Below, piece after piece: positions 17,148 through 25,812 of a stretch of 64,000 nt of DNA (its first letter is position 1; the number at the start of each line of letters is the position of its first letter). The notes below the pieces were generated by a model. It saw only the letters and a list, made by a program, of their open reading frames with translations. It ran no database searches and was not told where the DNA came from. Origin of the DNA: Sphingobacteriaceae bacterium (GTDB taxonomy: Bacteria; Bacteroidota; Bacteroidia; B-17B0; Aurantibacillaceae); NCBI GenBank assembly GCA_002319075.1, contig NVQB01000001.1, positions 4,712,001-4,776,000 of the forward strand. Direction: 5' to 3'. Made by a program: the position numbers and the translations under genes.

Positions 17148-19173
17148 GCTTATATGTTTTTTTATGTTTTTGGTTGCGACGTGTTGGTCGCAAACTGATA
17201 GTACTACCTTAAAAACGGCTGGTGGTAAGTCTTTAAAACGCCTGGGAAAAAGCGCTTTAAAGCAGAATGATCCCAGCTCTGCCATCATTTTTCTGGAGGC
17301 CTACGTGGCAAAAAATAAAAAAGATGCCGAAGCCCAGGCTTTACTCGGAAAAGCTTACATGGAAATTCGTGACTACGACCGTGCTCAGCACATGTTTTTG
17401 AAGGCTTACACCACCGACAAAGCAAAGGCTCCAGAAGCCTTGTATTATCATGCTTTGATGATGAAATCGAATGCCCAATACGATAGCGCGAGAATGAATT
17501 TTCAAAAGTTTAAAAAAGAATACAAAGGAGACAATAAAAAATTAAAAAAATTGGCGACGCGTGAAATCGTTTTTTGCGATTCGGTTGTAAGAATTATTGG
17601 TTCAGAATTTAAAATTGTTATCCAACATCTTGATACTTCTATAAATAAAATAAATACAGAGGGCGCTCCTGTAAACTTTGATGACGATAAGCTTGTTTTT
17701 ACCTCTCTGCGTACAGAAAAAGAAGAGTATCTCATCGAAGACGATACGGCGGCGGCGATTAAAAGAAAACTTTATTTTGCGAAAAGAGTAAATGACAATT
17801 GGCAGTTTGGCAGTGAATACGCTTCCAATCTTAACGACCCGGATTTTAATACAGGAAACGCCAGTTTTAGTCCCGACAGGCAACGAATTTATTTTACACG
17901 GTGCAAATTAAATATTATGGAAAAAATGGTCTGTGCCATTTATGTTTCTGAAAAAAGTGGTGATGGATGGACTGAGCCAGTGAAACTTCCTAAAGAAATT
18001 AATAATCCGAAATATACGTCTACCATGCCGGCGGTAACCATCGATCCTGTAAAAGGAAATGATGTTATTTATTATGTAAGTAACAACAAGGAGGGCAGGG
18101 GAGGTCTGGACATCTGGTACACGGTTTATGATAAGAAAAATAAAAAATACAAAGCCCCTAAAAACGCGGGATCCAAAATAAATACTTCGCAGGATGAGAT
18201 CAGTCCTTTCTTCGATACAGAAACGCGTACACTTTATTTCAGTTCTAATGGACTAGGTGGACTAGGCGGTTACGATATTTTTAGAAGTAAAGGAGACGGT
18301 AAAAGATTTACAGGCAGCGAAAATATTGGTCAGCCTATTAACACTGGCGCTGACGATATTTTTTATACGATTTCTACCAATAGGGGTGAAGGTTTTTTTG
18401 TGAGTAACCGCAAAGGGGGGAACGCTTTAAAAAATAAAACCTGTTGCGACGATATTTATTTTTATAAACACGCTGAGTACGTTCGTTTATTTGTTGCAGG
18501 AAACATAAGTAATATTTTAGATAAGAGCGATGCTGTTAAAAACGCGACCATAGAATTGTATATTAAAGATAAAAAAACAAACGAAAAATTTCTTGTAAAG
18601 ACAATAAACACGGATGATCTGGGAAATTACAGAACCGCAGTAGATGCCGGTCAGGAATATTTCCTTGTGGTGAAAAAAGATGATTTTCTGGGAACCAGCG
18701 AAGACGTATCTACAGTAGGTATTACAAATTCGAAAGATATTATCAGAGATTTACAAATGATTGAGAAACCGAAAGAGCCGGTTAATATTCCAAATATTCT
18801 TTATGAGTTCGATAAATCTAATTTGTTGCAGGAAAGTAAATCTGCTTTAGATGCTACTATATTAAAAACAATGCTATTAAATCCGGAAATTATCGTCGAG
18901 ATTCAGTCTCATACCGACAATAAAGGAAGTGACGCCTATAACCAGAAACTCTCTCAAAAACGGGCAGAGAGCGTTGTATCCTACTTGATTAGTAAGGGTA
19001 TTGATGCTAAGCGTTTAAGAGCTAAAGGATTTGGCGAGAGTTCTCCCATCGCTCCAAACGAAAAACCAGATGGCAGCGACAACCCAGAAGGCCGGTCAAA
19101 AAACAGACGTACAGATTTTAAAATTGTCGGTGTTGTGGATGCTGAAATTATCAATTATTCTAACGAGGAGTAA
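17134..19173 (+). CDS. OmpA-family protein with TPR and PD40 repeats
   Basis: A 679-residue exported protein. A signal peptide (to about residue 20) is followed by TPR-like helices (about 30-130), WD40/PD40 beta-propeller repeats (about 150-440, SPDRQRIYFT, LYFSSNGLGGLGGYDIF), a carboxypeptidase-regulatory-like domain (about 455-530) and a peptidoglycan-binding OmpA C-terminus (SHTDNKGS, LSQKRAESVVSYL, GFGESSP, NRRTDFKI). It probably links the surface complex to the cell wall. GTG 17134 is the chosen start, overlapping porP/sprF by 14 nt, so translational coupling is likely. Such PD40-OmpA proteins commonly accompany PorP/SprF in T9SS loci. Confidence 0.9.
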   Translation: MRDIRLICFFMFLVATCWSQTDSTTLKTAGGKSLKRLGKSALKQNDPSSAIIFLEAYVAKNKKDAEAQALLGKAYMEIRDYDRAQHMFLKAYTTDKAKAPEALYYHALMMKSNAQYDSARMNFQKFKKEYKGDNKKLKKLATREIVFCDSVVRIIGSEFKIVIQHLDTSINKINTEGAPVNFDDDKLVFTSLRTEKEEYLIEDDTAAAIKRKLYFAKRVNDNWQFGSEYASNLNDPDFNTGNASFSPDRQRIYFTRCKLNIMEKMVCAIYVSEKSGDGWTEPVKLPKEINNPKYTSTMPAVTIDPVKGNDVIYYVSNNKEGRGGLDIWYTVYDKKNKKYKAPKNAGSKINTSQDEISPFFDTETRTLYFSSNGLGGLGGYDIFRSKGDGKRFTGSENIGQPINTGADDIFYTISTNRGEGFFVSNRKGGNALKNKTCCDDIYFYKHAEYVRLFVAGNISNILDKSDAVKNATIELYIKDKKTNEKFLVKTINTDDLGNYRTAVDAGQEYFLVVKKDDFLGTSEDVSTVGITNSKDIIRDLQMIEKPKEPVNIPNILYEFDKSNLLQESKSALDATILKTMLLNPEIIVEIQSHTDNKGSDAYNQKLSQKRAESVVSYLISKGIDAKRLRAKGFGESSPIAPNEKPDGSDNPEGRSKNRRTDFKIVGVVDAEIINYSNEE

Positions 19174-19400
19174 TCGCGCATTCGCATATCTGTAAATCTT
19201 TTGTCGGGTAAAAATTCTCTTTCTAGTATACTTTCAGTAGGGATGCGTTGGTTAATTTTTGTTGAAGGAGTTTAAAAAGCACTCGTTTTAATGTATAAAT
19301 GCTCAGCCTTATTTGACGGTTCAAAAAGGTTAGGTTATTCTATTTTTAGCGGGTAAAACAAAACGCGACTAATTAAGTCAAACAGTGGCGATATTGAAGA

Positions 19401-19490
19401 GAGAATGGGTGAGAGCTTACGCACACTGATTTCAAAATCGTGGGTGTTATAGATGCAGAGCTTATTTACGATGAAAATGGAGATCAATAG
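19401..19490 (+). pseudogene. Decayed tail of a second OmpA-family gene
   Basis: From 19428 the plus strand reads DFKIVGVIDAELIY and then DENGDQ to a TAG at 19488-19490. This matches the end of the OmpA protein just upstream (DFKIVGVVDAEII). The nucleotide differences are mostly at codon third positions, so the fragment diverged while still coding. Immediately upstream the frame is broken: an RRT-equivalent is offset, and a TGA lies in the competing frame. The rest of 19174-19400 shows no other gene. The tail overlaps the last codons of the minus-strand peroxidase gene. Confidence 0.65.
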
Positions 19491-20536
19491 TTCACTCCTG
19501 GATCTGCAAATCTTCTATCGTATAAAAATTCTTTGTCTGTAAGCGTCATTAAAAAAGCGAGAAGATCTTTCTTTTCTGTCTCATTTAGTGTTCCTATTTT
19601 TAAAAGGGAAAGATCTGCAGATTTCTCAAAATTTTTTGGACTGGAATAGTAGTTCACTACTTCTCTTAAATTCCTGAACCGCCCGTCGTGCATGTAAGGA
19701 TAGGTCATCGCAATGTTTCTTAAACCGGGTACTTTAAAACAATTTTTATCTTTTTCCACACCAGTAATTTTAAAGCGTCCGGAGTCTTTGAGTGATGTAT
19801 CTGTTTTTATGCCGTTGTTTCTGTAACTATTGTCTGTAAACAGCGGCTCTGTATGACAATTAGCGCACTTTGAGCGGAAGAGTTTTAATCCCTGTAATTC
19901 AGCTTTTGAAAAGGTATCCTGATGGTTTAAAAATTTATCGTAGCGGGAATTTGAACTAACCATAAGTCCTGTAAATTGTGCGAGAGATTTCAGAAGACGT
20001 TCAGAATTAATGATTGTATCGTGGTAGGCTTTTTTAAATAACTGTGCGTAAGTGGAATCCCTTTTTAGTTTTAAGAGAACATTGCTCAATGTTTCGTCCA
20101 TTTCAAGGGGATTTGTAATAGGATTTAAAGGCTGAACTTCTAAATTATTTACGCCGCCATCCCACATATAACTGTCTTGCCAGATCAGGTTTTGTAATGC
20201 TGGAATATTTCTTGTCCCTATGCGTCCATTAATGCCATGACTTAAGCGGTGATCAATGTGCGCAAATGCTGCAATACGCTGATGACACGAAGAACAGCTA
20301 ATGGAATTGTCTTTTGAAAGTATGTTGTCGTAAAATAATCTCCGCCCCAATATAAAAACATCGGGACTCAATTTATTTTTAGCAAAGGTATACTTAGGTT
20401 TAGGAAATCCTTTTGGTATTTTTAATTCAACATCCTTCGCTGTTATATTGAAAAAGGGATTGTCATTCGTAAAGCTTACAAAGAACAAGCAAAGCAGGAG
20501 AAGTGTAAAAGAGAAATATGTAATTTTAATTCTCAT
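19484..20536 (-). CDS. MbnH-like di-haem cytochrome c peroxidase (MauG family)
   Basis: A 350-residue exported protein with signal peptide (about 1-24) and two c-type haem motifs, CSSCH (81-85) and CANCH (224-228). MauG/CcpA-family landmarks also appear: FYDNILSKDNSISC, GTRNIPALQN, MWDGG, and VPGLRNIAMTYPYMHDGRF near the C-terminus. Family members reduce peroxide or use it to oxidise Trp of a partner protein. In methanotrophs MbnH converts a Trp of MbnP to kynurenine. Here the gene start overlaps the end of the MbnP-like gene by 11 nt, which supports an MbnH role over a general peroxidase. It is the last gene of the six-gene minus-strand run. Confidence 0.85.
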   Translation of the reverse strand: MRIKITYFSFTLLLLCLFFVSFTNDNPFFNITAKDVELKIPKGFPKPKYTFAKNKLSPDVFILGRRLFYDNILSKDNSISCSSCHQRIAAFAHIDHRLSHGINGRIGTRNIPALQNLIWQDSYMWDGGVNNLEVQPLNPITNPLEMDETLSNVLLKLKRDSTYAQLFKKAYHDTIINSERLLKSLAQFTGLMVSSNSRYDKFLNHQDTFSKAELQGLKLFRSKCANCHTEPLFTDNSYRNNGIKTDTSLKDSGRFKITGVEKDKNCFKVPGLRNIAMTYPYMHDGRFRNLREVVNYYSSPKNFEKSADLSLLKIGTLNETEKKDLLAFLMTLTDKEFLYDRRFADPGVNY

Positions 20537-21293
20537 GCTTCGAAGTCAAAAGTTTGAACATCTCTTTGTAATTGTCTGCAATGCCGGGAGCGTTATGAAA
20601 GTCTGTTACAGAAGGAAGTTTTTCAAAATCGACTGGAGTGTTGCTCATTAAAACTTTTAACACGTCTGCTTCTAAATAAAGTGATTGCCGCGAATCTTTC
20701 TCAGTGAATTTTAGATCTTTTAGCGGAAGGTAAATTTTACGTATGCAGTTATTTGCGTTTTTATAGCCACCAATATGGTATTCCAGAATATGTGCGGGCA
20801 GGGGCGAAACAGGAGAGCTTCCTTCCAGTTTTAAAAAAATGTAGCCGCTATTCCAGGCCCAGAACATAGCATTAACAGGGTCTAAAGCGCCTGACTGGGC
20901 ACCACTGCAATTATGCAAACTGTCTACTCCAAGTATAAAACTTAAAGAAGTAAAATTCCCAAAAGGAATGTTTTCAAGGATCAGATGTTTTGATTGCTGC
21001 TCGTCTTCGTTTACTAAAAAATACAGGTCTGATTGAAAAACTTTACCGTTGTCCTGCATTAATTGAAATTGTCCGAGATAATATTTGAACTTGCTAATAG
21101 TAAAAGTTTGATGAAGTGTGTTGGTATAACTCGTCGAGTCTAGCTTTAAGGGAAGAGATCCAACAACATGTGAAATAGCGAGTTCTAGTTGCCCCTTATT
21201 TTGAGCACTTAAAAAGAAAGAAAAGCCGGATAAGATTACCAAGTAGATCACTCGTAGCAAGGAGCCTGACCCCATTTTTACCCGGCTTTTCAC
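20526..21293 (-). CDS. MbnP-like copper-binding protein
   Basis: A 255-residue exported protein matching the MbnP-like domain. Seen are strands ISKFKYYLGQFQL (about 66-78), YFLVNEDEQ, SFILGVDSLHNCSG (118-131) and the signature AMFWAWNSGYIFLKLEG (142-158) with Trp145 and Trp147. In characterised MbnP, a Trp oxidised to kynurenine by MbnH contributes to copper binding; which Trp would be modified here I cannot say. The start is GTG 21293 (KSRVK n-region) or ATG 21275; both keep the signal peptide ending LSAQ. It follows the YHYH gene by 3 nt and overlaps the peroxidase gene by 11 nt. Confidence 0.82.
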   Translation of the reverse strand: MKSRVKMGSGSLLRVIYLVILSGFSFFLSAQNKGQLELAISHVVGSLPLKLDSTSYTNTLHQTFTISKFKYYLGQFQLMQDNGKVFQSDLYFLVNEDEQQSKHLILENIPFGNFTSLSFILGVDSLHNCSGAQSGALDPVNAMFWAWNSGYIFLKLEGSSPVSPLPAHILEYHIGGYKNANNCIRKIYLPLKDLKFTEKDSRQSLYLEADVLKVLMSNTPVDFEKLPSVTDFHNAPGIADNYKEMFKLLTSKHEN

Positions 21294-21296
21294 TAG

Positions 21297-22514
21297 TTAT
21301 TTTTTAATGATTTTCTGAGTGATTTTGTCTTTGCCTGCCTCCATAACCAAAGAATAAACTCCCTGTGGAAGATCTGTCATGTCAAGTGTGTAAGCGATAC
21401 TTGGCTGTAAATATTCCATTGTTTTAACGAGTTTGCCGCTAACATCATACAAGTTTCCTTTTACATTGTTTTTACTTTGCTCATCCATATAAATAAAAAC
21501 ATAATCCTGGGTTGGATTCGGCATCATCTTAAATTTAATAGTACTTAATGGATTTTCTTTTAAGCCGGTTGCAAGAGGACTATAAACAGTAGTTGATTCC
21601 GTAATAGTATTGTGTCCTCCCGGATTGTTTGGTCCAGCGGCTATGTTACCACTTTGCACCACTCCGTAATAGGTTCCGAAAAGTGTATAAGGAAATACCG
21701 GGTTCAGGTTCGCGTCTATTGTAACGAAGTACGCATAAGTCCCATTCGGATATTCAGGTGTTTTACAAAACCTTCCGTTTCTGAAATCAAGGTCTCCTGA
21801 AGCTGCAGTGAAAATATGATCTTCAATAAAACAGCCTGCAGGATAAGTAGTGTTTACTGCAGGTCCGTTAACACGGGTTGTTGCTGTCGAAACCGAATAA
21901 CTGCTTACCATACGTTTAATTCCGCCTGTACCATCTGTATTTGCATACCCATAGGCGCCATAAACAGGAAAACCGTCAAAAGCATAACCGATAATTGGAG
22001 AATGTTTTGTATTATCATTCACATCGTATAAACACTTAGGACTCACATGATGATGGTATTCGCCCTGTTGTTGTGCATGACCCAAGCAATTATCGAAGCT
22101 CGGCTCTTCAAAATAATAGGCATTTCTATTCCAAACACCAGCATTGTTATAAGATTGAGCGTCGGACACATTAAAAATGCTCACGCCATTACTAAAAACG
22201 CCAATGTGCCCATTTCCAATGGCAGTTGCGGTACCTGTGTTTTGTTGTGGATTGCGCGTTATTTTAAAAACGAAATTCTGGTTACTTGCCACATTTGGAT
22301 TAGACCAGGGACCAATGGCATAACCCGGAATGCAGGTACAACTCACATAAACGTCGTTGCTTGAGTACTGCACGGTTTGCACGTTGGAAAGAATACCAGC
22401 ATAACCCGTAGCGTTAGTTGTGTTACGGATCCAGGAACTGATTTCTGGACCTACCTGTGCCTGTGCGGTGAATGCCGCTGAAAATGCGACTGCTAAAAAT
22501 TTTGTTTTATTCAT
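21297..22514 (-). CDS. YHYH-domain protein with T9SS type A sorting domain
   Basis: A 405-residue exported protein. The ATG at 22514 gives the signal peptide MNKTKFLAVAFSAAFTAQAQ; the frame remains open upstream to 22631 but that would overlap the preceding gene. The YHYH-domain features are GHAQQQGEYHHHVSPKC, HSPIIGYAFDGFPVYGAYGY and a later NGTYAYFVT, so the first motif reads YHHH and the second YAYF instead of YHYH. The last 75 residues are a type A T9SS sorting domain (MMPNPTQDYVFIYM, LYDVSGKLV, LPQGVYSLVM). It is therefore secreted and probably surface-bound. The domain's function is unknown; a metal or redox link is inferred from the MbnP/MbnH neighbours. Confidence 0.85.
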   Translation of the reverse strand: MNKTKFLAVAFSAAFTAQAQVGPEISSWIRNTTNATGYAGILSNVQTVQYSSNDVYVSCTCIPGYAIGPWSNPNVASNQNFVFKITRNPQQNTGTATAIGNGHIGVFSNGVSIFNVSDAQSYNNAGVWNRNAYYFEEPSFDNCLGHAQQQGEYHHHVSPKCLYDVNDNTKHSPIIGYAFDGFPVYGAYGYANTDGTGGIKRMVSSYSVSTATTRVNGPAVNTTYPAGCFIEDHIFTAASGDLDFRNGRFCKTPEYPNGTYAYFVTIDANLNPVFPYTLFGTYYGVVQSGNIAAGPNNPGGHNTITESTTVYSPLATGLKENPLSTIKFKMMPNPTQDYVFIYMDEQSKNNVKGNLYDVSGKLVKTMEYLQPSIAYTLDMTDLPQGVYSLVMEAGKDKITQKIIKK

Positions 22515-22587
22515 GTGTGTTAGTTTATTTTTGACTGTTGTTTGTTTAGATGTTCTTTTAAAATAAAACTTGCGCGCTTCTGAAAAT

Positions 22588-23058
22588 TTATTTGGGTGGA
22601 CCATTGTGAGCAAATAAAGCTGCAAGATCATCTGCTAGTAAATTGAATTTTTCAAGTTGATCTTTTTTGCAAAGGGCTTTAATTTCGAGAAAGTGATTAA
22701 AATTTACATGATCAATCGCTTTTTGGTTTAAGGCAATGAGGTTCATTAATGAGTCGGATTTTTTCATATACTCTGGCTCCTTTAAAAGAGAAAAAAGTTG
22801 CTGATGAAGTGCGCGCGAGGCTTGTTCTAATTTGCGACTATTGCGACGGTGCGCGTCGATGGTGATTTGGTAAGCTTTCTGTTGCGCCGCGTCATAGCCA
22901 AGACGGTCAATAATAATTTGTTTTGGTCCTTCGCCTCGTGGTGGCCTCCCGAAATTTTCGTGTCTGGCCGTTTTGCTGAATAAAACGAATGCAAGGGTAG
23001 CCAGGTTTACTAGCACTAAGATCGTCACTGTTAGGATTATTAATTTTGAGCGCTTCAT
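22588..23058 (-). CDS. CnrX/Spy-like periplasmic heavy-metal sensor
   Basis: A 156-residue protein with one N-terminal membrane segment (about 6-27) and a helical periplasmic part of the Spy/CpxP/CnrX type. Seen are RPPRGEGPKQ, a long helix with AHRRNSRKLEQASRALHQQLFSLL, and the Bacteroidota-typical HVNFNHFLEIKALCKKDQLEKF, with His and Cys available for metal. In CnrYXH-type systems such a protein senses metal and controls an anti-sigma/sigma pair. It starts 1 nt after the anti-sigma stop, exactly that arrangement. The metal is unknown; copper is suggested by the MbnP/MbnH genes downstream. Confidence 0.82.
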   Translation of the reverse strand: MKRSKLIILTVTILVLVNLATLAFVLFSKTARHENFGRPPRGEGPKQIIIDRLGYDAAQQKAYQITIDAHRRNSRKLEQASRALHQQLFSLLKEPEYMKKSDSLMNLIALNQKAIDHVNFNHFLEIKALCKKDQLEKFNLLADDLAALFAHNGPPK

Positions 23059-23059
23059 T

Positions 23060-23350
23060 TTAATTGTAATTAATGCTGTTTGTATTCATTAATTGTAAAT
23101 CGTGCGATAAAGGTTCTAGTCCGCTGTTAGTTGTGCCAAAACCGGATATGCTGATAACGAGCAGATTTATACAAAGCAGCAAAAGCAGCGTTGCTCCTGC
23201 AAGCCAGGCCAGGCGGGTGGGAATGGATTCCTTTTCCTCACTCTGAAGTCTGTTTAAGATTTTAGAATACAAATAAGGGCTCGCCTCAGCCGGACGTATA
23301 CGCTCCAGGCTATTTTCGGTTTCGTTTATCCACTTTTCTTTTGCGTTCAT
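23060..23350 (-). CDS. Small membrane anti-sigma factor (probable)
   Basis: A 96-residue protein with a cytosolic N-terminal segment of about 45 residues (NETENSLERIRPAEASPYLYSKILNRLQ), one transmembrane helix (about 47-70) and a short periplasmic tail. There is no clear zinc-binding anti-sigma motif. Assignment rests on size, topology and position: 35 nt after the ECF sigma gene and 1 nt before the CnrX-like sensor. CnrY-type anti-sigma factors have the same build. The sequence alone is not diagnostic. Confidence 0.68.
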   Translation of the reverse strand: MNAKEKWINETENSLERIRPAEASPYLYSKILNRLQSEEKESIPTRLAWLAGATLLLLLCINLLVISISGFGTTNSGLEPLSHDLQLMNTNSINYN

Positions 23351-23385
23351 ATACTATTAGATGTTTAATAATTTAAAAACTTGCG

Positions 23386-23997
23386 CTATTTTTCATTTTC
23401 TTCGTAATAATTTTTCAAAAGCCCTTGCAGTTTTTGTTTTGCCCTGAACATAAGAGATTCTACAGAACTTAGTGAAATATTCATAACACCGGCTATTTCT
23501 GCATAACTCAAATCTTCGAGCTTATGCAAGATAAAAGCTGTTTTTTGATTTTCAGAAAGCTGGTCGATTGCCTTAAATAAAATAACAGCTCTTTCTTTAT
23601 TTTCGAGCCTCACTCTCGGATGATAAAAATCAGAAACAGGCAATTTCATTTCTTCACCTTGATTAGTGAAGAGAGACTGTAAGAACGCAAATCTTTTTTT
23701 TCGTTTTTTTCGTCTTAAAAAATCAAGCGCTGTGGTAACTGTAACACGATAAACCCAGGTGGATAAAGAAGATTCGCCTTTAAAGCGCTTAATGGATCTG
23801 TAAATAAGAATAAAGACTTCCTGACTAAGATCCTCCGCATCTTCAGTGTTTTGAACAATTCCAAGACAGGTATTGTAAACCTTGGTTTGAAACTCTTTTA
23901 CAAAAGATTCGAAAGCAAACGAATCACCCGATTTTAGAAGCGCTATTTTTTCCGACTCTGTCAAAATTATTAAGCAATGATAAACTTCTTTATGCAA
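23386..23997 (-). CDS. ECF-type RNA polymerase sigma factor
   Basis: A 203-residue sigma-70-family protein with region 2 (FVKEFQTKVYNTCLGIVQNTEDAEDLSQEVFILIYRSI, STWVYRVTVTTALDFLRRKKRKKR) and region 4 (LSENQKTAFILHKLEDLSYAEIAGVMNISLSSVESLMFRAKQKL). There is no region 1 or 3, as expected for an ECF factor. The start is uncertain: TTG at 23997 gives 203 residues, and TTG at 23964 (LTESEKIALL) would give a more typical N-terminus. No ATG is in frame. It is the first gene of a minus-strand run with anti-sigma, sensor and three exported metal/redox proteins, and probably directs their transcription. Confidence 0.9.
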   Translation of the reverse strand: MHKEVYHCLIILTESEKIALLKSGDSFAFESFVKEFQTKVYNTCLGIVQNTEDAEDLSQEVFILIYRSIKRFKGESSLSTWVYRVTVTTALDFLRRKKRKKRFAFLQSLFTNQGEEMKLPVSDFYHPRVRLENKERAVILFKAIDQLSENQKTAFILHKLEDLSYAEIAGVMNISLSSVESLMFRAKQKLQGLLKNYYEENEK

Positions 23998-24105: not shown

Positions 24106-25812
24106 ATGCTGGAGACCCATCTGCATGAACATCATTTATTACGTTTTTCCGTGGAGATAAAGAGTTCTTCGACGGTGTTAACTTCCGGTGCGCTTAAAAC
24201 GGATAAGAGTGCAGCGATCGTTTTTTATGATGAGAACGATAAACGCGCGTCCACATATAATTTATCCGTTCTTTCTAAAGAAGAAATATACGAGCGTATT
24301 AGCAAGGGGGAGACTCTTAATCTGGATAATTCCTACATCAAAGATTTTTCACTCAGCGAATACCGCAGACTCAATCATCTGGATGAGCACCAACTCGTTA
24401 TTCTTCATGATCTTTCAGCAAAAAAAACATTTTTTGATTGTGATCTGGAAACGGATTTTTCTTACGCGCAGTTTGAAGGTGCCAAAACAAATTTCGAGTC
24501 TACTGTTTTTGCAAATGGTTTTACAAATTTTTTTAATGCCAATTTTGGTCACGGAGATGTAAGTTTTCGCAAAGCCAAATTTGGAAGTGGCAGCACAAGC
24601 TTTCGGTCTGTTAAGTTTGGCGACGGACATATTACTTTTAATAACGCCAACTTTGGAAGTGGCGACCTGAGTTTTGTGGATGCTGACTTCAGCAATGGCA
24701 ATGTGGATTATAAGAACACTTATTTTGGAGATGGCAACGTGGATTTTAAATTCGCGAAATTTGCAAGCGGTGATATTACTTTTGAAAAGGCCAGCTTCGG
24801 AAAAGGCAGGAAAGATTTCAAGAATGTTGAATTCGGTGGGGGAAAGATTGATTTTAAACGTATTGATTTTAATGACGGGGACGTTTGTTTTGAAGGCGTT
24901 GAATTTGGCGATGGTAAAGTGAGTTTTAGAAGTTCCGTTTTCGGTGAAGGGCATAAAACTTTTGAATTTGCTGATTTTGCCAGGGGAGAAGCACAGTTTG
25001 ACCTGGTGAAGTTTGGAAAAGGAACAATAAGCTTTAATCAGGCTTCAGCTACCGATATTTCTTTTAGGAATTGTCATCTTGATGCTTACATGGATTTACG
25101 CTTTGGAAAATGTCATTTAATCGATCTGCGAAGTACAATTGTGAGAGATATTCTGGATGTAAAACCCGAAGGCGAAAAAGTGGTTATTAAAGAAATGATC
25201 CTTGCCGATATGCGTATTCTCGGACGTCTCTTTATCGACTGGAGAGGCAATGATGTGTATGATCTGATTTACAATCAAAAAACAACTTCCATGTTTCAGA
25301 AGGCGGAACAGTTTCGCATCTTAAAAGAAAACTTCCGCAATAACGGGCAGTATGAAGACGAAGACGCGGCCTATTTGGAGTTCAGACGCTGTGAGGCAAA
25401 AGCAAATTTGCAGGAAGCATTTTCGAAAAAAGGCATTGAAAGGTTAACAGCCTATCCCATTTATTATTTTCAAAAATACGTTTTTGATTTTGTAGGCCGT
25501 TACGCAACTGCTCCCACTCGTGTACTCCTGAACGCTTTAGTAGCGGTAATTTTATATGCATTCCTGTTTTATGGGTTCACCGAATTTTTCCCAGACTTAG
25601 GAACAATTGGTTCAACCTTGCCTCCGGATTTAAGTCATGTTCACGATTTTTGGAACAGTGTGTATTATAGCGCGATCACATTTTGTACGGTAGGCTATGG
25701 CGATTATTTTGCGCAAGGCTATCTGAAAATTTTCGCGGCCTGCGAAGGATTTACAGGGATATTTCTGATGAGTTATTTTACGGTTGCCTTTGTAAGGAAG
25801 ATTTTGCGCTAA
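24106..25812 (+). CDS. Two-helix potassium-channel-like protein with sixteen 12-residue repeats
   Basis: A 568-residue protein. Residues 123-314 form sixteen 12-residue repeats with consensus FGxGxxxFxxAx; Phe recurs at 123, 135, 147 and every 12 residues to 303. This is related in look to pentapeptide repeats but has a different period, and a beta-solenoid is likely. Residues 385-445 are charged and helical. The C-terminus is an ion-channel module: membrane helix about 472-491, pore helix, selectivity filter TVGYGD (528-533), second helix about 541-563. It should be a tetrameric K+ channel with a large N-terminal cytosolic domain. ATG 24106 is 108 nt from the divergent sigma gene. What the solenoid senses is unknown. 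Confidence 0.88.
   Translation: MLETHLHEHHLLRFSVEIKSSSTVLTSGALKTDKSAAIVFYDENDKRASTYNLSVLSKEEIYERISKGETLNLDNSYIKDFSLSEYRRLNHLDEHQLVILHDLSAKKTFFDCDLETDFSYAQFEGAKTNFESTVFANGFTNFFNANFGHGDVSFRKAKFGSGSTSFRSVKFGDGHITFNNANFGSGDLSFVDADFSNGNVDYKNTYFGDGNVDFKFAKFASGDITFEKASFGKGRKDFKNVEFGGGKIDFKRIDFNDGDVCFEGVEFGDGKVSFRSSVFGEGHKTFEFADFARGEAQFDLVKFGKGTISFNQASATDISFRNCHLDAYMDLRFGKCHLIDLRSTIVRDILDVKPEGEKVVIKEMILADMRILGRLFIDWRGNDVYDLIYNQKTTSMFQKAEQFRILKENFRNNGQYEDEDAAYLEFRRCEAKANLQEAFSKKGIERLTAYPIYYFQKYVFDFVGRYATAPTRVLLNALVAVILYAFLFYGFTEFFPDLGTIGSTLPPDLSHVHDFWNSVYYSAITFCTVGYGDYFAQGYLKIFAACEGFTGIFLMSYFTVAFVRKILR

Follow-up and report, generated by a model that had tools for sequence, protein, structure and literature searches.

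Work on MbnP/MbnH pairs has been carried out in methanotrophs, bacteria with a high demand for copper; the kynurenine of MbnP is said to be the subject of a PNAS paper of 2021, and the structure of MbnH that of a JBC paper of 2019. The CnrYXH trio is a further described system, whose cargo is an efflux pump. In this study, relatives of both were found in one six-gene run on the minus strand of a 64,000-nucleotide stretch (the window, C1:4712001-4776000) from the 5.65-Mb genome (stated completeness 99.98%) of a Sphingobacteriaceae bacterium. The run encodes, in this order, an extracytoplasmic function (ECF) sigma factor, a 96-aa putative anti-sigma, a 156-aa sensor, a 405-aa YHYH protein, a 255-aa MbnP and a 350-aa MbnH-like di-haem protein. 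With a probability of about 0.52, these genes are one co-inherited unit that handles copper outside the cytoplasm, being switched by the sigma factor and comprising an MbnP matured by MbnH and a YHYH protein at the cell surface. The list of open reading frames (ORFs) of the window contains the six minus-strand ORFs with spacings of 35, 1, 73, 3, and -11 nt, in agreement with the run described in the sequence-only reading that preceded this analysis.

Each of the described systems resembles the window in part. CnrYXH and NccYXH share with it three adjacent genes, a short anti-sigma and a sensor profile matching CnrX and NccX, but the sensor here keeps one of the five CnrX ligands, Spy scores higher than CnrX, and the cargo consists of exported proteins instead of a pump. 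The PF14240 proteins of phage tails and bacteria have the same domain, conserved His/Asp set and predicted fold as the YHYH protein, while the window's subfamily differs by a type IX secretion system (T9SS) tail, present in 40 of 44 relatives, and, at some of the loci, by its linkage to the sigma trio and to MbnP/MbnH. The MbnP/MbnH pair of Methylosinus trichosporium is similar in the MbnP fold (7l6g), the WxW motif and the adjacent MbnH-like di-haem enzyme (6e1c), whereas the window's genome has no MbnB-type gene, its proteins are under the equivalog cut-offs, and its MbnP is 14% identical to 7l6g. According to the accessible part of PMC3621798, MbnP-MbnH pairs occur outside methanobactin producers, some near ECF/anti-sigma genes of FecIR type (Methylosinus), and Methylosinus MbnI/MbnR are of this type, in contrast to the CnrX-type trio of the window. 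CorA/CorB and MopE/SACCP of methanotrophs likewise place a surface kynurenine copper protein beside a di-haem peroxidase-like gene, but CorA is reported to be copper-repressible, and the accessible portions of PMC3912023 mention neither a sigma trio nor YHYH. No publication that combines a CnrX-type trio with MbnP/MbnH, or YHYH with one or the other of these, was found in the open literature, with most subscription journals outside this search. The earlier claim that the combination looks undescribed is consistent with this search of the open literature, but its novelty is narrowed by the MbnP/MbnH genes near FecIR-type ECF/anti-sigma genes already in print (accessible part of PMC3621798).

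The protein encoded at 20526..21293 (minus strand, as are all six genes) belongs to the MbnP family by profile, fold and invariant WxW and His residues. It scored 166.3 bits against Pfam PF20243, about six times the cut-off of 27 (E 9.7e-49), so the MbnP assignment made earlier from the letters alone was borne out. Its AlphaFold model (predicted local distance difference test, pLDDT, 83.5) matched 7l6g, entitled 'MbnP from Methylosinus trichosporium', with a Z of 16.0 and a root-mean-square deviation of 3.2 over 208 aligned residues at 14% identity; the next entry after 7l6g in this comparison had a Z of 8.1, and Foldseek gave the MbnP match an E of 2.1e-8. Sequence searches of the PDB with single, profile and fragment queries returned no MbnP structure, and the fold search alone found one. 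In the alignment, Tyr72, Asp124, Asp138, Met143, Trp145, Trp147, and His173 were invariant in 41 of 41 rows, all distinct. By analogy with the studied MbnP/MbnH pair, these conserved residues suggest that the protein may bind copper and carry a kynurenine at Trp145/147. Two further MbnP paralogues were found in the genome, one with an MbnH beside it; these appeared lipoprotein-like by a crude lipobox pattern and the operon copies did not, so the sigma-linked MbnP/MbnH pair looks a distinct set by this crude measure.

The adjacent gene at 19484..20536, which overlaps the MbnP gene by 11 nt, encodes a di-haem enzyme of MbnH/MauG type. It contains two CxxCH motifs (CSSCH and CANCH) and scored 168.6 bits on PF03150 CCP_MauG (cut-off 25.6, E 1.8e-49). 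Its best NCBIfam match was TIGR04039 (MbnH), ahead of MauG, and 6e1c, which we take to be the MbnH of Methylosinus, was aligned across residues 39-346 with an E of 6.7e-39. The MbnH-type partner that the first reading placed beside MbnP was thus recovered, although the TIGR04039 match is below its cut-off.

For the YHYH gene, the longest ORF opens at 22631 (444 aa), but an ATG at 22514 that precedes the signal peptide is the likely start, giving the 405-aa protein at 21297..22514. The window protein matched PF14240 (YHYH) with 175.6 bits against a cut-off of 25 (E 1.4e-51), and 44 of the 44 alignment members matched this family too. The T9SS sorting domain PF18962 was found in the window protein as well as in 40 of the 44; with its N-terminal signal and type A T9SS tail, the protein supports the T9SS export that had been proposed. 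In 101 rows, representing 98 different sequences and numbered by the 444-aa ORF, His185, His193, His195, His210, and several Asp residues were invariant (101/101). The YHYH domain is predicted to be a metal-dependent hydrolase that binds its metal through three His and one Asp (accessible part of PMC7824862), and the conserved His/Asp set of the window's subfamily fits this prediction. The motifs YHHH and YAYF, which had been regarded as unusual variants, proved to be usual for the subfamily, as 92 of the 101 rows have H at the third position of YHHH, all 101 have Tyr301 and 99 have Phe302; the variant interpretation was rejected. The protein model (pLDDT 83.6) matched the fold of phage YHYH models, whereas the leading rows of a search of the PDB with the whole protein corresponded to the T9SS tail or Ig-like domains and have no bearing on the novelty of the YHYH fold. 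In another locus, L045:3556-7252, three tandem YHYH genes lie between the trio and MbnP/MbnH.

The first gene of the trio, at 23386..23997, matched Pfam Sigma70_r2 and r4_2 above cut-off; its TTG start at 23997 is doubtful, and the alignment of relatives begins, by eye, near the LTESEK codons, so that the start is perhaps at ~23964. The second, at 23060..23350, is a putative anti-sigma by its position and 11 aligned relatives of 20-45% identity; no Pfam or NCBIfam family was found for it, its relatives giving chance-level matches only, and it is CnrY-sized with one hydrophobic segment by eye. The third, at 22588..23058, encodes a periplasmic CnrX/Spy-like helical sensor that scored 25 bits on PF13801 Metal_resist by itself, under the cut-off of 29.2, and 10 of 13 members of the sensor alignment matched this family at E<=0.01. 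When the profile of the 13 sensors was searched against the PDB, Spy (2.5e-6), CnrX 4wwb (3.4e-4) and NccX 4clv (7.1e-4) were returned. Sensor residues His70, His122, Gln59, and Gln134 did not vary among the 42 linked rows, of which 39 are distinct, and Cys130 was kept in 39 of 42. The metal ligands of CnrX are H42, H46, E63, H119, and M123; by this numbering, the invariant His122 stands opposite H119, the His of 'LVHVFEM', E63 is opposite a consensus acid, and H42, H46, and M123 are opposite other residues. Homology to CnrX/NccX was found, but the CnrX ligand set is not retained. Of the 30 best-scoring sensor loci in the taxonomic order, the window included, 29 were arranged as ECF factor, anti-sigma, sensor; by gene order and PDB matches, the trio named in the sequence-only reading is CnrX-NccX-Spy-like. 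In L118, which carries the sensor of G082, an in-frame TAA stop lies inside the sensor match and represents decay or an assembly error.

The neighborhoods of these genes were then counted in 87 genomes of the order, within 5 kb and on the same strand, all MbnP counts being lower bounds based on the 150 MbnP rows listed out of a longer list. YHYH was present in 60 of the genomes, MbnP in 80 and sensor matches in 40. Among 42 sensor matches, both YHYH and MbnP were near 23, YHYH only near 6, MbnP only near 1 and neither near 12; that is, YHYH lay near 29 and MbnP near at least 24. These 12 include G056 (L111), in which MbnP actually adjoins, and G001 and G057, which are at contig ends. The 75 YHYH places (of 76 rows, the second piece of one G065 frame being dropped) comprised 23 with sensor and MbnP, 23 with MbnP only, 6 with sensor only and 23 with neither, with MbnP near at least 46. 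Six of the 75 rows are weak partial matches in 534-570-aa proteins, including one in G012 that belongs to the six sensor-only places; YHYH scores below ~75 bits in the locus tables are T9SS-tail matches and not YHYH genes. In the 30 best sensor loci, the window included, the gene after the trio was YHYH in 11, MbnP in 13 and another gene in 6, so that 24 of 30 continued with a gene of the unit. These counts point to an association beyond chance, and the co-occurrence in related genomes that the first reading depended on was observed.

The trio together with MbnP and MbnH was complete in five of 58 named YHYH loci (L045, L053, L055, L057, and L091, some with extra genes). Trio and YHYH without the MbnP/MbnH pair were found in three (L063, L076, and L082), anti-sigma and sensor at the contig start in one (L074), and MbnP and MbnH without the trio in 16. 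In L132:680-5043, MbnH, a T9SS-tagged arylsulfotransferase-like gene and YHYH are consecutive, and the trio of the same genome is on a separate contig (L127).

To relate the sigma factors, an ECF tree of 61 rows was used, of which 37 were linked loci and lone trios of the order and 24 were trios with other neighbors; the tree was made quickly, SH-aLRT being its sole branch support, and 21 of 58 inner branches were open. Linked loci with cut, short or repeat ECF genes (including L108, L111, L116, and L145) and the other-cargo loci L159 and L171 were excluded. The 37 rows were split from the 24 by 3 changes, compared with a shuffled mean of 19.3, and 0 of 500 shuffles were as low. Among 31 linked rows, the two gene orders, YHYH first and MbnP first, exchange nine times, with many weak forks; the label 'MbnP first' alone was unclustered, 125 of 500 shuffles being equally low. 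Since the order was reshuffled and the linkage retained, shared function or regulation is the best explanation.

Further, a sensor match at E<=1e-6 was detected in 123 of 296 genomes of the phylum, and the 29 best-scoring loci besides the window were inspected with ~1.5 kb on each side, a range that misses YHYH or MbnP genes lying farther away. Three of them, from three other families (L143, L144, and L145), had a sensor followed by MbnP-MbnH. The MbnP/MbnH pair is thus tied to a sigma switch in four Bacteroidota families of the searched sets, and in the family of the window also to a surface-exported YHYH protein. With this defined gene set, one can ask which signal calls for copper sites of the kynurenine type in organisms other than methanotrophs, and the enigmatic YHYH domain gains a candidate for a functional partner.

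Additional pointers to copper came from the genes that join the unit. A T9SS-tailed multicopper oxidase and a following redoxin-like gene were found inside sigma-YHYH-MbnP-MbnH operons at L136:6422-8743 (G010) and L091:3436-5777. In the order, seven of 90 multicopper-oxidase places had YHYH or the sensor no more than 6 kb away, in every case on the same strand, with three of the seven near the sensor; seven genomes, including that of L136, hold such a match. Another recurrent neighbor of the unit (L132, L057, and L091) is a T9SS-tagged arylsulfotransferase-like protein, and the cluster of these proteins was found in six named loci. As to the earlier statement that methanobactin genes are lacking, it was supported for MbnB, as a whole-genome search with PF05114 at E<=0.001 returned nothing, with 2 of 14 control genomes positive; for MbnC, TIGR04160 had no match in the genome, but no control genome was positive either, so this part is not backed by a working control.

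Judged from sequence, the gene families, their conserved linkage and the T9SS tag are established, as is, in the predicted model, the MbnP fold. The proposed mechanism goes further. The membrane-anchored CnrX/Spy-like sensor and the short CnrY-like anti-sigma would restrain the ECF factor, a role as a switch that is suggested by homology to CnrYXH and by gene order. A periplasmic metal change would release the ECF factor, so that the operon, its own regulators included, would be transcribed; the metal is most likely copper, to judge from the cargo. MbnH, using peroxide or oxygen, would oxidize one of the Trp residues in the MbnP WxW motif, with kynurenine as the probable product, and would thereby complete a copper site. 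The T9SS-exported YHYH metalloprotein would serve this task from the cell surface. We lean slightly toward copper excess rather than shortage as the trigger. Expression under excess would resemble that of CnrX systems and would suit the multicopper oxidases among the cargo; expression under shortage would resemble the copper repression of CorA (accessible part of PMC3912023).

Several results weigh against this reading, and they bear differently on its rivals. The trio could instead be a general envelope-stress switch of Spy/CpxP type that responds to misfolding or other metals, with MbnP, MbnH, and YHYH among many cargoes and a signal other than copper, which we regard as rather unlikely. Spy, a chaperone, outscored CnrX in the sensor-profile search, Spy and CpxP were each matched by 7 of 13 sensors in NCBIfam, and only one of the five CnrX ligands (H119) is kept as such in the sensor profile, E63 being kept as another acid, so that the metal of the sensor is not assignable from sequence. 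Moreover, 26 of the 29 phylum trio loci had other neighbors and still mostly kept the conserved residues (His70 in 23, His122 in 24 and Cys130 in 23 of 26); the trio is thus a general Bacteroidota device found beside many different genes. In L146-L171, trios of ECF factor, small protein and sensor have quite different neighbors with His/Cys mostly retained, which raises the possibility that a single signal, read by one sensor family, drives many outputs. However, the separation of linked and lone trios from the 24 other ECF factors in the tree, the linkage that outlasts order swaps and the multicopper oxidases that join the unit in some genomes speak against this rival, even though 83 of the 90 multicopper-oxidase places, both of those in the window's genome included, are away from it. 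The promoter search did not help the copper unit either: in 32 upstream regions, which remained from 36 ECF genes whose locus also held an anti-sigma match once the near-duplicates L094, L103, L107, and L082 had been removed, no k-mer or spaced dyad exceeded 15 rounds of dinucleotide shuffling. Activation and autoregulation of the operon would follow from the proposed switch, but with no shared promoter motif beyond shuffles, autoregulation and a trans regulon are not demonstrable.

A second rival, distinctly unlikely in our estimate, takes MbnH for a common cytochrome c peroxidase that removes peroxide and YHYH for a surface hydrolase, the whole being an oxidative or envelope defense set in which MbnP has no kynurenine. 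The di-haem peroxidase 1iqc was the best PDB match of MbnH by a hair (1.3e-39), a tie with 6e1c; the TIGR04039 score of 213 bits is below the cut-off of 362.85. Against the copper reading in general, MbnP reached 41.7 bits on the MbnP_like_WxW equivalog TIGR04052, under its cut-off of 140. The metal-dependent hydrolase prediction for YHYH would also suit this rival (accessible part of PMC7824862). Against this rival stand TIGR04039 as the top NCBIfam match ahead of MauG, the 11-nt overlap between the genes of MbnP and MbnH, the invariant WxW and His, and the match to the MbnP fold.

A more specific form of the copper reading is a Bacteroidota copper economy that uses kynurenine chemistry and involves no methanobactin. 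In it, the trio would sense periplasmic copper and MbnH would mature MbnP, which in turn would hand copper on to the surface YHYH protein and, in certain strains, to multicopper oxidases; YHYH would then be a copper enzyme, whereas a zinc hydrolase is predicted for the phage proteins related to it. Taken as a whole, we consider this form quite improbable. That the six genes are independent and merely adjacent by accident is hardly credible. The blocks do occur apart (12 of 42 sensors and 23 of 75 YHYH places had neither partner within 5 kb, and 33 of the 58 named YHYH loci, some of them short stretches, had neither trio nor MbnP-MbnH), but by our estimate chance would put a YHYH gene, present once or twice in a genome of several Mb, no farther than 5 kb from a sensor in well under 1% of cases, compared with 29 of 42 observed. 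All ten Hymenobacter loci are among these 33, so YHYH lives outside the unit too.

Around the operon, the upstream neighbor at 24106-25812 is a divergent gene with an ion-channel domain. Directly downstream, a short minus-strand frame at 19160..19247 resembles the C-terminus of MbnH (15 residues at 46.7% identity; 20.4 bits, with a maximum of 18.5 among 100 shuffles), a weak match that may be the C-terminal remnant of a second MbnH.

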